Made by a program: the position numbers and the translations under genes. Of a stretch of 64,000 bases of DNA, positions 3,721 to 12,700 are shown in pieces. The first letter of the stretch is position 1, and each line of letters begins with the position of its first letter. This DNA comes from Candidatus Diapherotrites archaeon (GTDB lineage Archaea > Iainarchaeota > Iainarchaeia > Iainarchaeales > 1-14-0-10-31-34), in contig JBFMAK010000001.1 of NCBI GenBank assembly GCA_040755695.1, positions 510,637 through 574,636 of the forward strand, written 5' to 3'. The notes beneath the pieces were generated by a model. The model searched no databases. It saw only the letters and a list, made by a program, of their open reading frames with translations, and was not told where the DNA came from.

Positions 3721-3903
3721 ATGGGATTTTTCGGTTCAGGAAAAAAAGAAGAGCAAAAAGATGAAGCAGGAGAACAAGAAGGAAAATACTCTGAAACATG
3801 CTCTCTGTGCGGAGGCACAGGAACAGACAAGAAGTGGGCAGGAAAATACTGGCACAAACGTTGTTATAGGTCTGCTAGGAAAGCCAGTAAAAAATTTATA
3901 TAA
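3721..3903 (+). CDS. Small zinc-finger-like protein (60 aa)
   Basis: A 60-residue protein with a charged Lys/Glu-rich N-terminus and a C-terminal CSLCGGTG ... WHKRCYRSARK segment. The CxxC and HxxC pairs look like one four-ligand zinc site. It begins 5 bases after the alkylation repair gene and ends just before a T-rich stretch (3901-3930) that may terminate this plus-strand unit; it is convergent with carB. No family is recognised. Confidence 0.6.
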   Translation: MGFFGSGKKEEQKDEAGEQEGKYSETCSLCGGTGTDKKWAGKYWHKRCYRSARKASKKFI

Positions 3904-6900: not shown

Positions 6901-7293
6901 CATTGCCTTCTTGAATTCCTCCCTGTCCTCTGTTTTCTTAATTACTTCAATCCCTGTGCCTAAAACCTTCACTCCATGCTTCTTCAGAATTCCTTTCTCC
7001 TCTAATTTCACTCCAGCATTCAATGCTGTCTGGCCTCCAAAACTCAAGAGAATTCCATCAGGCTTCTCCAATTCAATTATTTTCTCTAGAAATTCAGGGG
7101 TAATAGGCTCAAGATAAACCTTGTCTGCAAGCTCTGATGTTTGAATTGTAGCAATATTAGGGTTCACCAATACAGTCTCAATGCCTTCCTCTTTTAATGC
7201 CTTTAATGCCTGCGAGCCAGAATAATCAAATTCTGCCGCCTGGCCAATTCTAATGCCTCCAGAGCCTAAAAGTAAAACTTTGGCTGGTTTCAC
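3928..7293 (-). CDS. carB: Carbamoyl-phosphate synthase large subunit fused to PyrI-like effector domain
   Basis: A 1121-residue protein with both CarB ATP-grasp halves: N-terminal SGGIRIGQAAEFDYSG and a second copy GAGPIRIGSSVEFDWC near residue 560, each followed by ATP-grasp motifs (RPAYTLGGLG, RPSYVLSGSAM). It makes carbamoyl phosphate from bicarbonate, ammonia and two ATP. A shortened MGS-like region follows to about residue 1010. Residues 1027-1121 then match the N-terminal allosteric domain of PyrI, the aspartate carbamoyltransferase regulatory chain: NGTVIDH, GVKDMLKIEGKVLS, SPKATVNIIKDYEV. The PyrI zinc domain is absent. The start is GTG at 7293, with AAAGGAGG upstream inside the endonuclease gene, whose TGA overlaps it as GTGA. 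Confidence 0.93.
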   Translation of the reverse strand: MKPAKVLLLGSGGIRIGQAAEFDYSGSQALKALKEEGIETVLVNPNIATIQTSELADKVYLEPITPEFLEKIIELEKPDGILLSFGGQTALNAGVKLEEKGILKKHGVKVLGTGIEVIKKTEDREEFKKAMKEADVSVPESRTAISVKSALEAAGKIGYPVIVRPAYTLGGLGSDIAWNEEELEKIAGIGLKHSMIGQVLIEKYLFHWKELEYEVVRDSSDNCITVCNMENLDPLGIHTGDSIVVAPSQTLTNKEYHLLRSAAIRVIRSLKIVGECNIQFALDPKSQQYYAIEVNARLSRSSALASKATGYPLAYIAAKLAVGFTLPELLNKVTGATKACFEPALDYIVVKIPRWEFQKFSGVNRRIGSQMKAIGEVMAIGRNFEEALQKAVRMLEIGRELIEEEKIEIRKLEEELRHPTDQRLFAIVQAVRQGMKIERIHELSGVDEWFLHKIKNIASMHSKLKKLNFSNEDFPEVLSQAKKLGFSDKKIAGMLNASQEKIRELRKHYGIIPVVKQIDTLAAEWPAKTNYLYFTYNGTENDIDFSDSAKALVLGAGPIRIGSSVEFDWCTMNCVWGLKEKGLKAIVLNCNPETVSTDYDMSDKLYFEEITLERVLDIIEKENPFGVVVSVGGQTSNNLAFSLAKRGIHILGTFGRDIDSAENRQKFSSLLDELGIAQPEWKSLASLKEIKAFSKKIGFPVIVRPSYVLSGSAMKVAFNQKELKEYVKGAVIVSKDCPIVISKFLTAMECEVDGVSDGKNVFIGAIIEHIERAGVHSGDASMVIPPQSLSEEIQEKIRDYTKRIAQSLGIKGPFNMQYLVKDREIFVIECNLRASRSMPFTSKTIGVNLIKLATKCMLGEALHETEPKIAGVCSIKVPMFSWSRLGGIDPKLSVEMNSTGEIACLGESFEEAFLKALIAIEQSFPFSLEGKAKGTVFIKGVEEKFIERIKGIGFNSTKEFDAERMPEIVIDLEKESSIRKKAAEYGIPVISEFNTAEAFVKSLEAKPSLNPKSLKEYWRLSGMEKEYKINKIENGTVIDHIAQNRALDIIEALNIKRKYPNSTISMVTNIHSKKFGVKDMLKIEGKVLSQKEIQKIARISPKATVNIIKDYEVIKKIELGK

Positions 7294-8717
7294 AGACCAA
7301 ATGCCTCCTTTCTGTTTGGTAAAAATGGTTGAATTCTTTTTTTATTGTATAATCCATTTAAAAATTTAAAATTACGTTTTTTATGTAGGTTAAATAGTTT
7401 ATGGTTAAAAACATTGAGTAGGTTTTGCTGACGCTGTATTTTTATTGATTTATACTTTAAGTTTGAGTTTATAGTAATGCCCAACTTTTTTAAGGCTTGT
7501 GAATACAAATCTATTTCCTTCTGGTTTTCAATTCTAATTTGTATATAATCCAAATTACTATTTGAGATTATTGGTGAGCCATCTGCTGCCAAAACTCCTT
7601 GCATAAACCATTTAGAATAATCGATCTTCTTCGTTAAAAAAAGGGTAATATTATTTAAGATACTAAACCAAACTTCTCTGAAAACAACATCTGGCAAATA
7701 TAAGTGCAGAGAACCACACTCAGCAATTGGGTTACCTACAAATAACTTTGTTTTGGTGAAATTAACAAATGGAATATTAATCTGTTTGCTCCATATTTTC
7801 TTAAACTTTTTTTCTTTTTGAAGTGATTTTTTTAAGTTTGTATAAATTATTTTTGCCCTCCATTTAACTCGTGGTGCTAAAAAGTTTTCTTCAAAGCATT
7901 CCAAAAATAAATTTATTAAGTTAAAATCTGAATTTACAATTTCAACTCGCCTTAAATTGTTTTTACTTCCTTCTCCTTGAAAAAGTCCTAGTGATTGAAC
8001 TAATTTTTCATTCAATTTGATATAACGTGGTAATTCAACATGGGTTCCGACTCGCCCGGACCACACCCACAACTTGCCTGCATTTAAAAATGCTTTAATT
8101 CTATTAGTGCTTTTTAATTTAAGAACATACAGGTCAATGAAAATATCGCCCCCTTTTTCAATTAAGGGCTCTAAATTCGGATTACTATAATCCTCAATTT
8201 TTTTAAGGAATATTACTTTTTCTTCTGCTTGATCAGAGTTAGATTGCAACAGCCCATATGGGATATAAAATTTAAAATAATCATTATTTCTATCTTTTCT
8301 TTCAGTTTTTTTTATTTTTGAAACAAACGTTATCCCTTTTAATTTGCAAATAATAATATCTTTATCTTTTAAGCAAACTTTTTTTGCAAGCTCAATAGGA
8401 AAATACGCAGGGCTATACCCCGCATGAATTTTTCTTTTTTTTACTTTTATATAAAAAGTAGTTTCATCAATTAGTTTTTTGGGTATCTTAAATATTTTTA
8501 ATTTTTGTCTTTTTTTCTTTACACCGCCTTGAGAAAAGTTTTTATTAAATTTAATGGAAAGCTCATTAGCTATTTTTTTATCAGTCACGCCATTTTCGGA
8601 CAAACATTTTAATTCTTTAATATGCTCTTCAATCCAAATATTCATCTCTGATCTAATAAATAAAAAAGTTGCTTGTATTTTAAAATCGTTTTCAAAGAGC
8701 ACATCTCCCATGAACAT
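7290..8717 (-). CDS. LAGLIDADG-family homing endonuclease between carA and carB
   Basis: A 475-residue protein with two LAGLIDADG-type helices about 130 residues apart: QSLGLFQGEGS (240-251) and WFMQGVLAADGS (370-381), with acidic residues E249 and D379 in the catalytic positions. The N-terminus has a helix-turn-helix-like stretch (residues 30-58, SENGVTDKKIANELSIKFN). Members cleave long asymmetric DNA sites and promote their own spread. It is free-standing, not an intein or intron: carA is complete before it and carB complete after it. Its first ATG is 1 base after the carA stop and its stop overlaps the carB start. It is visibly more AT-rich than its neighbours, suggesting transfer. The true start may be M25. 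Confidence 0.85.
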   Translation of the reverse strand: MFMGDVLFENDFKIQATFLFIRSEMNIWIEEHIKELKCLSENGVTDKKIANELSIKFNKNFSQGGVKKKRQKLKIFKIPKKLIDETTFYIKVKKRKIHAGYSPAYFPIELAKKVCLKDKDIIICKLKGITFVSKIKKTERKDRNNDYFKFYIPYGLLQSNSDQAEEKVIFLKKIEDYSNPNLEPLIEKGGDIFIDLYVLKLKSTNRIKAFLNAGKLWVWSGRVGTHVELPRYIKLNEKLVQSLGLFQGEGSKNNLRRVEIVNSDFNLINLFLECFEENFLAPRVKWRAKIIYTNLKKSLQKEKKFKKIWSKQINIPFVNFTKTKLFVGNPIAECGSLHLYLPDVVFREVWFSILNNITLFLTKKIDYSKWFMQGVLAADGSPIISNSNLDYIQIRIENQKEIDLYSQALKKLGITINSNLKYKSIKIQRQQNLLNVFNHKLFNLHKKRNFKFLNGLYNKKRIQPFLPNRKEAFGL

Positions 8718-9870: not shown

Positions 9871-9878
9871 TTTCTGCA

Positions 9879-10030
9879 TGCAGGGGGGAGGATTCGAACC
9901 CCCGAAGGCACTAAGCCGCCAGATCTCCCAATTCTTTTTCTTTCTTTTCATAAACGTTTTCTTTTCTTTTTCTAAAAAGAAAGAAAAGGTTTCTTGAGTC
10001 TGGTCCCGTAGGCCGCTTGGGTACCCCTGC
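9879..10030 (-). tRNA. tRNA-Leu(CAA) with a 68-base intron
   Basis: The minus strand folds as a complete tRNA once an intron is removed. Acceptor stem GCAGGGG (10030-10024) pairs perfectly with CCCCTGC, the discriminator is A at 9879, and no CCA is encoded. Anticodon stem CCAGA pairs with TCTGG, the loop reads CT-CAA-G-A, the long variable arm is typical of leucine, and the T-loop is TTCGAAT. The exons are 10030-9993 and 9924-9879 (84 bases together). The intron lies at the canonical 37/38 position. CTCAA of the anticodon loop can pair with TTGGG at the intron end, as in a bulge-helix-bulge. The intron is mostly a polypyrimidine/polypurine hairpin. Confidence 0.93.
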
Positions 10031-10091
10031 ATGGAAAAATCTTTGCAGTGAAAAGTATAAAAATATAAACCGCAAGGCAGTTAATTCTATT

Positions 10092-11003: not shown

Positions 11004-11638
11004 TCAGGCCCTCCTCTTAGCTAACTTAAACTGAAAGTAGCCGGTTACTTGAATTCTGGAATTATTTGCTGGGTATCCTATTTGAAGTTTGTTCTGCATC
11101 ATGTCCAGACAACTTTGTTTCTGGATGCTGCTCACTATTTTTTCCCAGTAAGTGGAATCACCAAAGCGCTGAGCCATGTTGAGATAACAATTGTCTTTAT
11201 TGCTGACATCCTTGATTTTCTCGCAGACTACAGCATCTCTTTTGTCTGTTGCGTATTGGTTATAGCATTGGTCTTCACTTAATTCTGCTTCTTTGCATAC
11301 AGCTGGATCGCCTTTCACTTCAGCAACTAATGCGTAGCAGGAAAGGCGTACATCCTTGCTTACTTTTTTGCACAGAGAAGTGTCCTTAAGTTTTGCTGCA
11401 AGGCCAACAATGCACAAGTCTTCAAGTGAGCCTCCTTGAGCCGAAGGCATGCCAGTGCAAACACTCAATTGCGTCTCAACACTTAGATCTTCTGCTTTAG
11501 GTTCAGGTTCAGTAACAGGGCACAAGGCTTTATTTAGAACAACTGTCCCGTCAGAGCAGACGTACTGAAATGCAGAGCTTCCTGAGCTGTTTGCTGCTGC
11601 GTGCAGCCAAGCAAAATAATGCTCGCACCCAACAACAT
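11004..11638 (-). pseudogene. Cys-rich lipoprotein gene with a frameshift after the lipobox
   Basis: From ATG 11638 one frame gives MLLGASIILLGCTQQQ, a short signal peptide with lipobox LLGC, and then soon stops. The rest of the protein is in another frame from about 11590: NSSGSSAFQYVCSDGTVV, then a Cys-rich domain with repeated CYALVAEVKGDPAVC-like units and a final NNSRIQVTGYFQFKL. Adding one A to the AAA run at 11592-11590 joins both parts into one 211-codon reading frame (CTQQQNSSGSS). So it is a single-base deletion in the gene, a sequencing error, or a phase-variable switch. A TATA-like TTTATAAATA about 25 bases upstream of the ATG fits a leaderless transcript. Function unknown. Confidence 0.72.
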
Positions 11639-11685
11639 AGCCAAATAAAGTTTATTTATAAAAGGTTATCATAAAAAAAAGGGAA

Positions 11686-11865
11686 CGCGGAGGGCGAGAT
11701 TCGAACTCGCGCGGGCTTTCGCCCAAGAGCTAACTGCTTACCATTTTTCTTTTTTGGGCAACCTGCCGTTTCTTTTCTTCCGGCAACTTGCAGCTTCTTT
11801 TCTTTCCTAAAGAAAAGAAGGGGCAGTAGCAGGCTCTCGCCGTAACCAGACTGGGCCACCTCCGC
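11686..11865 (-). tRNA. tRNA-Ser(GCT) with a 95-base intron
   Basis: On the minus strand acceptor GCGGAGG pairs with CCTCCGC, with discriminator G at 11686 and no encoded CCA. The D-arm is GCC...GGC, anticodon stem AGAGC/GCTCT, loop CT-GCT-A-A, serine-type long variable arm TGGGCGAAAGCCCGC and T-loop TTCGAAT closed by GCGAG/CTCGC. Exons are 11865-11827 (39 bases) and 11731-11686 (46 bases), with the intron at position 37/38. CTGCT of the anticodon loop pairs with AGCAG near the intron 3' end, as expected for a bulge-helix-bulge. Inside the intron is a perfect 12-bp hairpin CTTCTTTTCTTT-AGG-AAAGAAAAGAAG. Confidence 0.93.
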
Positions 11866-11870
11866 AAATC

Positions 11871-11945
11871 AGAACCTTGCGGTTCCAATACCTCCCTCAC
11901 GCCGGTTGACGTGCGGGCACTATCTTCGCATTCGCTCGATAGTGC
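11871..11945 (-). ncRNA. Structured RNA candidate: three consecutive hairpins upstream of tRNA-Ser
   Basis: No protein frame occupies this GC-richer stretch. It contains three adjacent inverted repeats: GAACC/GGTTC (11872-11885), CCCTCACG/CGTGCGGG with one mismatch (11894-11917), and a perfect GCACTATC/GATAGTGC (11917-11945). Read on the minus strand the first loop is GCAA, a GNRA tetraloop, which favours that strand. The element would then end 6 bases before the tRNA-Ser 5' end, perhaps in one transcript. It could be a small RNA, a leader processed from the tRNA precursor, or a terminator for the converging strand. No known family is recognised. Confidence 0.4.
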
Positions 11946-11986
11946 TGTTTCGCTTTAGAATTATTTTGGTTGAAAATGTTTTTTAT

Positions 11987-12700
11987 TCAGTTGGTTTGAA
12001 AGCGCTTTCTTTCTGAGATGTGGGCATAGAGGTCAAGCACGATTTTGCCTATGACAAGTATGAGGACTGGAGCGCTTATAATTGCACCGAAAATGAGCGC
12101 TGCCTGCATTACAATTATTCTCGGGTAAGGGGAAAACATTAATGTTGTTGGACTGGCTTTCTCGTATTCTTTTCTCCCCACATAATTTGTAATGAAAGAG
12201 ATTCCATGGCTTATGAACAGGAAAACAAATGCAATGAGCACATTAAAGAAAATTGTTTCAAAGCCGTGAATGCTTGCCCTTAAATTGAAAAAAAAGCTGA
12301 AGAATGCCCTGAATATTACTAAAAATAATATGGCAAATAGGTGAGCTGCCATGAATATGCCGTAGTGAATGCAGAAGAAAACCACCAAAAAAATTTTAAT
12401 TATGAAAGATTTTTTTTCTGCTGTTTCTTCAGGGGTTGCCCCAGCTAAGTTTATTTTTATTACAGGCTTTCCGTCTGCCTGCTGAAGATTCTGAAGGTTT
12501 ATGGCACCTTTTGCTAGGAGCATTTTCAGTATTGTGTAGAAGCCGATTATTGCGCTTTCACTCCAGTACAGTAAAAGTATTTCTGTTGTATTCCAGCCGT
12601 AAAATAGCACTCCAAACAATGGAATTAGATTGAATATGATTAGGACTATGGCTGAAGGATAAAAGGAAATGTCCTTGAAGTTACTCAAATTCACATTCAT
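11987..12700 (-). CDS. DUF6498-like multi-pass membrane protein
   Basis: A 237-residue protein with about six hydrophobic segments. The region GWNTTEILLLYWSESAIIGF and the following helix ending TILKMLLAKG resemble DUF6498 membrane proteins. A large hydrophobic region FFCIHYGIFMAAHLFAILF follows, then FVFLFISHGISFITNYVGR and a short charged tail. It has no signal peptide cleavage site and would sit in the cytoplasmic membrane. Function unknown. It is monocistronic, divergent from the next membrane protein gene across a 54-base gap. Confidence 0.7.
   Translation of the reverse strand: MNVNLSNFKDISFYPSAIVLIIFNLIPLFGVLFYGWNTTEILLLYWSESAIIGFYTILKMLLAKGAINLQNLQQADGKPVIKINLAGATPEETAEKKSFIIKIFLVVFFCIHYGIFMAAHLFAILFLVIFRAFFSFFFNLRASIHGFETIFFNVLIAFVFLFISHGISFITNYVGRKEYEKASPTTLMFSPYPRIIVMQAALIFGAIISAPVLILVIGKIVLDLYAHISERKRFQTN

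Follow-up and report, generated by a model that had tools for sequence, protein, structure and literature searches.

The locus considered here raises a simple question: why should three hairpins follow one another immediately in front of a tRNA gene? It lies in a window of 64,000 nucleotides (the whole stretch of DNA that was analysed) from a Candidatus Diapherotrites archaeon, and the original prediction read the hairpins as a possible co-transcribed leader, a small RNA released by RNase P or a new structured family. Insertion of mobile elements proved a better reading than these. With a probability of roughly 0.88, the locus is a stack of two tiny non-coding mobile-element insertions at the 5' border of tRNA-Ser(GCT). 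Hairpins 1 and 2 (modules A and B) and hairpin 3 (module C) are copies of two mobile families and not a leader confined to a single locus, and relatives of the two display a covarying fold, dispersal, a defined docking end (that of B or C), long target duplications and, in one case, an empty site.

The computed fold contains the three successive inverted repeats that had been described, as consecutive hairpins on the minus strand at 11868-11945. Their minimum free energy was -35.7 kcal/mol versus -22.7 +/- 3.1 kcal/mol in 200 shuffles (z -4.2; 0/200 as good), and the plus strand folded much more weakly (z -1.55; 17/200 shuffles as good). All features of the locus given below are on the minus strand. 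The outer hairpin, module A (11917..11945), was delimited by the fold, the family alignment and covariation; its 8-bp stem, GCACTATC..GATAGTGC, carries a conserved GA/GAA internal loop around an inner GC-GC pair. The middle hairpin, CACGTC..GGCGTG, is a degenerate B that has lost its 3' strand at the start of C: comparison of the match with intact copies leaves, at 11898..11916, the pseudoknot spacer together with the 5' strand and loop of B (GTCAACCG-GCGTGA), the 3' strand CGGTTG being absent. Module C (AGGGAGGTATTGGAACC-GCAA-GGTTCTGAT-TT) occupies 11866..11897 and is assigned to the second mobile family by its R2 match and by flanking duplications at other copies. Its hairpin, ATTGGAACC-GCAA-GGTTCTGAT, does contain the expected GNRA (GCAA) loop.

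The neighbouring tRNA-Ser(GCT) is genuine, with the addition of a 95-nt intron: ARAGORN found it at c[11685,11866] when introns were allowed and found none when they were not, and the same run gives the 5' exon at 11827..11865, the intron at 11732..11826 and the 3' exon at 11685..11731. The distance of six bases from the hairpins to the tRNA, as first reported, holds for the inner GAACC/GGTTC stem and not for the last stem base, which, like the 3' end of C, is 2 nt from the tRNA (G1 at 11865). Another tRNA of the window, tRNA-Leu(CAA) at 9878-10031, also has an intron and was missed without the intron option. Upstream of A, at 11950..11975, there is an AT-rich stretch that, judged by eye, may hold a TATA-type promoter. 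From this putative promoter the hairpins would be transcribed into the 5' leader of pre-tRNA-Ser. Here, co-transcription as a leader is a plausible reading; the elements would now form such a leader and would probably be lost in 5' maturation.

In a comparison of 281 bases from the locus with the window's own 1.30-Mb genome (G000), 22 matches were obtained, and reading them locus by locus revealed three recurring modules: A, a hairpin with a GA/GAA internal loop around a GC-GC pair; B, a hairpin CAACYG..CRGTTG immediately after A; and C, of the form GGAGGTATCGGAACC-loop-GGTTCTGAT. The window has them in the order A, truncated B (3' strand missing), C. The A+B covariance model R1, built from five own-genome copies and matching the window at 11894-11945 (G000:C1:522530-522581), found 10-11 copies in this genome and, across the order, matches in 35/75 genomes, including 12/22 high-quality ones, with at most 19 copies per genome; 40/75 genomes were without the family at the threshold used. 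Searched with an exact pattern that fits one form of A, a named genome collection gave 39 matching stretches, mostly in records titled Diapherotrites, Altiarchaeota/Altiarchaeales, Woesearchaeota, Micrarchaeota, Aenigmatarchaeota and Pacearchaeota, while some bacterial-titled records look like chance or mislabelled bins. Twelve such records were searched with R1, and nine contained the A+B model, with five copies each in one Altiarchaeota- and one Woesearchaeota-titled record. One of the nine, titled Saprospiraceae, has a tandem hairpin array in place of A+B; on this contig (L077, 3076-3271) the hairpins share the A loop and B is missing. Among viral contigs, three stretches carried the A hairpin only, with an identical matched stretch, and none carried the exact C pattern; no vector was found there.

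The original prediction had proposed an Rfam search and a covariance analysis in relatives as checks, and both were made. Rfam 15 gave 0 matches in the window at the gathering threshold and chance-level matches only for 11600-12050 at E<=10, and among 20 relative loci it matched tRNA and rRNA only. The stems of A and B both covary. In 48 distinct copies, all 18 model pairs showed two-sided changes (153 such cells vs 40 in column shuffles), and 92.6% of cells paired vs 30-45% when partners were slid by 1-3 columns. A further 75 copies again had 18/18 pairs changed on both sides (283 two-sided cells vs 75), and 19 copies from other records had 15/18 (71 cells vs 21). Over the three sets together, 90-94% of cells were paired vs 28-50% in slid controls, percentages that lean towards the model, to which the alignments (A6, A7, A9, A10) had been fitted. 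Covariation was weakest in the two outermost pairs of B, which fits those outermost 3' bases being part of the target. The A+B fold is under selection, and extensive covariation together with the lack of an Rfam match supports the proposal of a new structured family.

The spacer between A and B also pairs with the loop of B over 3-4 bp, in the register s1-l5 to s4-l2, as in ACTG/CAGT, CCAG/CTGG, AAAA/TTTT, TCAC/GTGA, TCCG/CGGA, TTCG/CGAA and ACGC/GCGT. Watson-Crick cells made up 63.6% in this register vs 36% in permuted combinations (maximum 46% in 5000) and 24-30% in other registers, as counted on 104/146 copies with 88 distinct combinations, other spacer or loop lengths and the Saprospiraceae record being excluded. 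Most of the signal is in the three inner pairs, s1-l5 being optional. Such pairing makes an H-type pseudoknot. In the favoured reading, element 1 is a unit of about 54 nt, hairpin A followed by a pseudoknot of the A-B spacer with the B loop, and element 2 a shorter hairpin (C), which in the window replaces the last strand of B. The idea that the hairpins act only as a terminator of the plus strand fails because the conserved loops, which are strand-specific, and the pseudoknot are those of the opposite strand. By eye we also considered and dropped K-turns, a second split tRNA and guide RNAs of the box C/D and H/ACA types, as there was no C box, no ACA and a tandem GA without a 3-nt bulge.

The surroundings of the copies reveal a marked polarity. 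For this comparison we used 123 copies (125 matches, 50 + 75, minus two duplicates) rather than every match: 29 other genomes contributed their best locus each, the own genome its matches, and 60 further, top-listed stretches completed the set. A gene boundary was found at the B-end of 55/123 copies and at the A-end of 4/123; 68/123 had no recognised boundary at the B-end. The boundaries were a tRNA 5' end in sense within 5 nt (20/123), a tRNA 3' end in antisense within 5 nt (12/123), a stop codon, at an offset of -5..+2, ending an antisense open frame with 100 codons or more (12/123) and a T-loop-started tRNA 3' fragment within about 12 nt (4/123), and seven copies were inside tRNA introns (7/123). 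These contexts were assigned not from annotation but with ARAGORN with introns allowed, a T-loop motif near the B-end and an open-frame test, and ARAGORN in this mode mislabels some intron-bearing tRNAs (those of L022 and L024 were called Ser and look like Pro).

The 20 sense copies before tRNAs invite the supposition that the two-hairpin RNA is a functional leader module, kept by selection, that guides the folding or 5' processing of stable RNAs. Its covarying stems would agree with that, as would the A+B copies that precede 23S rRNA in G000 and G048, two families of the order. We nevertheless find this explanation unlikely: of the 55 boundary copies, 31 lie inside tRNA introns or, in antisense, behind tRNAs or protein genes, four more are at T-loop fragments, the family is missing from the 40 order genomes mentioned above, and the target duplications and the empty site described below also speak against it. 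A model of leaders only was dropped once the antisense, intron and stop-codon contexts had been found. Release by RNase P as a small RNA is likewise unsupported as a general function because those 31 copies stand against 20 in tRNA leaders. Recurrent placements, namely those before 23S rRNA and before tRNA-Ile(TAT), which a family copy precedes in G000, G005 and G041, could reflect a retained or a later function. In one 16S-23S spacer (L016), tandem C-like units stand directly behind 16S rRNA at 3740-3840, and an A+B copy stands before 23S rRNA.

Direct repeats scoring at least 13 flank 15/122 order-level copies vs 0.35% expected from swapped flanks. In ten of the 15 (L052, L035, L112, L153, L054, L169, L120, L136, L149 and L164), the right repeat begins at -2..+1 of the B-end and the repeats are 18-46 bp long; the other five comprise two neighbouring paralogous tRNAs, one case beside a masked run and two whose repeats begin at +4 and +32. 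In other records, 6/19 copies have repeats of 22-51 nt beginning at -2..+3 of the B-end; one of them, at L252, is a perfect 28-bp duplication complementary to the 5' end of a tRNA-Arg, and another, at L249, is a perfect 22-bp duplication with zero filler. The length of the duplication differs even within a genome (46 and 20 in G021; 30 and 20 in G024). Most repeat-flanked copies have 0-25 variable bases between the left repeat and A; in the others the distance is 37-89 bases, often with an extra hairpin.

The strongest single observation for mobility is L153, an insertion with a target duplication of about 43 bp. Compared with this locus of G054, the same-genus genome G056 has one copy of the target, with flanks overlapping by ~43 bp, and lacks the 56-bp insert. 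This empty-site comparison comes from a single locus; another genus (g12) gave alignments too poor to show such a site cleanly. Around the A+B copy of the window no target duplication could be detected, and its B is broken; for these reasons its mobility is inferred from its relatives; it is probably an old, stacked insertion.

Element C behaves as a second mobile family. Its model found 12-13 own-genome copies and, across 73 genomes, matches in 13/73, with 16 in G002. Flanking repeats scoring at least 14 were detected at 7/38 distinct copies, and six of the seven begin at -2..+4 of the C-end; two are perfect, of 29 and 27 bp, and one, at L206, may stem from paralogy, being a diverged tRNA 3' end. 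Eleven of the 38 copies run antisense within tRNA introns, which ARAGORN assigns to Pro, Glu, Gly, Leu, Ala and Arg; four are in sense before tRNAs and three are antisense behind tRNAs. Examined by eye, the Pro and Gly introns have the C-end at the border of the 5' exon, position 37/38, and the tRNA introns that hold C look like inserted elements. C is less variable than A+B, with compensating changes in seven cells of three pairs. Since A is directly followed by C in L023, L159 and L149, B and C may stand in for each other as the 3' domain.

How might such small units move? No mobilising enzyme emerged from the searches made for reverse transcriptase and Y1 transposase. A mobilising machinery would presumably recognise folded nucleic acid, and joining would begin at the 3' end (that of B or C), which docks at stop codons, at the ends of tRNAs and at the borders of their introns. 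The other side would be completed loosely, with variable 5' filler and duplications that differ in length, much as target-primed reverse transcription or single-strand insertion would leave it. A precise 3' end, a loose 5' end, long variable duplications and a pseudoknot appear closer to target-primed reverse transcription than to a cut-and-paste enzyme. Eukaryotic SINEs are structured non-coding units with a precise 3' end, a loose 5' end and target duplications of variable length. A+B has the same pattern of ends and the same variable duplications, but it lacks a poly(A) tail and is far smaller, and no reverse transcriptase partner was found: PF00078 was present in 5/73 genomes and in only 1/34 element-bearing ones. 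These tallies, like those for Y1 transposases, were counted by hand against the family. The one element-bearing genome is that of the window, and its PF00078 gene lies on a contig, G000:C5 (L172), whose GC-rich open frames are unlike the rest of the genome and which is probably a contaminant.

Hairpins with conserved unpaired bases are also what one would look for in REP/RAYT or IS200/IS605-type elements, whose single-stranded DNA is mobilised by a Y1 (HUH) transposase, and Y1 proteins do occur in 24/73 genomes, with five in that of the window. We nonetheless regard this origin as quite improbable, given that Y1 was found in 11/34 element-bearing vs 13/39 element-free genomes, with no link to the family, and is absent from the copy-rich G003, G004, G002 and G062. 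To our knowledge, IS200/IS605 insertion leaves no target duplication, whereas A+B insertions leave 18-51 bp; A+B thus displays neither co-occurrence with Y1 nor duplication-free insertion. It is very improbable that A+B is the scaffold of a TnpB element of the omega-RNA type, in which the flank would be the guide: an RNA with a pseudoknot and, next to its 3' end, variable flanking DNA would suit it, but the target duplications would not, and the open frames upstream of 66 copies, inspected by eye, included no recurrent gene, TnpB or other partner. Just as doubtful is a kinship with integron attC recombination sites, although these too are folded sites beside gene ends and integrons have been reported in archaea (excerpts of PMC9668308). 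A+B has two hairpins and a pseudoknot, not one long imperfect hairpin, and the copies that we read are single ones among ordinary genes and tRNAs with no cassette arrays around them. We also know of no tyrosine recombinase that makes such target duplications.

The nearest described kind to A+B is YPAL/RU-2 of Yersinia, an element that, according to the excerpts of PMC2229807 available to us, is non-coding, has no terminal TA and makes variable target duplications of 3-26 bp; its targets span or adjoin dyad symmetry, empty and filled sites were compared, and the movement of such elements is called an open question (PMC2229807). A+B is alike in all these traits, from the lack of coding and terminal TA to variable duplications, dyad-symmetry targets and empty and filled sites, but YPAL/RU-2 is bacterial and 168 bp long and A+B has about 54 nt and belongs to DPANN-type archaea (PMC2229807). 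The pseudoknot, the docking at tRNA boundaries and the single defined end are features of A+B that the same excerpts do not mention for YPAL/RU-2 (PMC2229807). As a palindromic unit without a gene and with variable target duplications, A+B is YPAL-like in description. The palindromic elements of Rickettsia are dispersed in a similar way but, in these excerpts, are long stem-loops of 105-146 bp with terminal inverted repeats, compared with the two hairpins and pseudoknot of A+B (PMC2229807). A further likeness to them is an A+B copy of G044 (L041, 1501-1557) that lies in frame, adding 19 codons, within an open frame that we take, by eye, to be an RtcB-like tRNA ligase. Classical MITEs, as portrayed in excerpts of PMC2229807 and PMC10969869, resemble A+B in being short, non-autonomous and dispersed and in making target duplications, but A+B has no terminal inverted repeats joining its ends, A and B being separate hairpins with unrelated ends, and its duplications are long (18-51 bp) and variable within a genome rather than short and of fixed length. 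By titles and abstract openings, we found no paper among the open-access ones searched that describes this family.

The age of archaeal tRNA introns (ancient or recently gained) and the manner of their gain are a long-standing question, and a review, in the excerpts consulted, asks for snapshots of intron insertion (PMC4033280). It also relates, citing Fujishima 2010, that tRNA introns of Thermoproteales spread by intron transposition (PMC4033280). The families described here likewise place repeated sequences inside tRNA introns, but, in contrast to what those excerpts report, what has been inserted here can be recognised as an element, copies of which lie outside introns too, with target duplications (PMC4033280). 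Repeat-flanked insertions at tRNA borders, further members of these families at the borders of introns and an empty site are material on intron gain. To the kinds of very small mobile DNA is also added one that has a covarying pseudoknot and is spread across several DPANN-type groups; the finding opens a test of the origins of tRNA leaders and introns. It is tempting, if decidedly tentative, to suppose that a pseudoknotted RNA of ~54 nt is the smallest retroposon-like element yet seen, and that a host or borrowed polymerase, starting at its 3' end, copies it into DNA at the tRNA genes of DPANN archaea; repeated insertions, including those of C and perhaps of the intron module described next, might then have built pre-tRNA leaders, 3' trailers and introns, and the tRNA introns there would be domesticated mobile elements.

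The intron of the window's tRNA-Ser, when compared with other introns, proved to contain a recurring module (module I; 11732-11826 of the window, and L009, L010, L013, L015, L016, L018 and L019), made of a pyrimidine/purine hairpin, a linker of the GGYAAGTTGCC type and a second purine tract. This second tract is an exact mirror image of the first, and the mirror is kept in 10/10 copies despite differing tracts (combined p 2e-10, the copies being related). Judged from its bases, the arrangement is the shape of a putative purine-motif triple helix. Elsewhere in the window, at 7290-8717, a 475-aa open frame resembles, by eye, a homing endonuclease of the LAGLIDADG type. Finally, at about 900-1700 of L198 (G022:C97), a toxin-antitoxin pair that we take, by eye, to be HicB/HicA-like lies between two copies of a tRNA-Leu 3' end, each followed by the same promoter-like sequence; this arrangement suggests the integration of a cassette at a tRNA.
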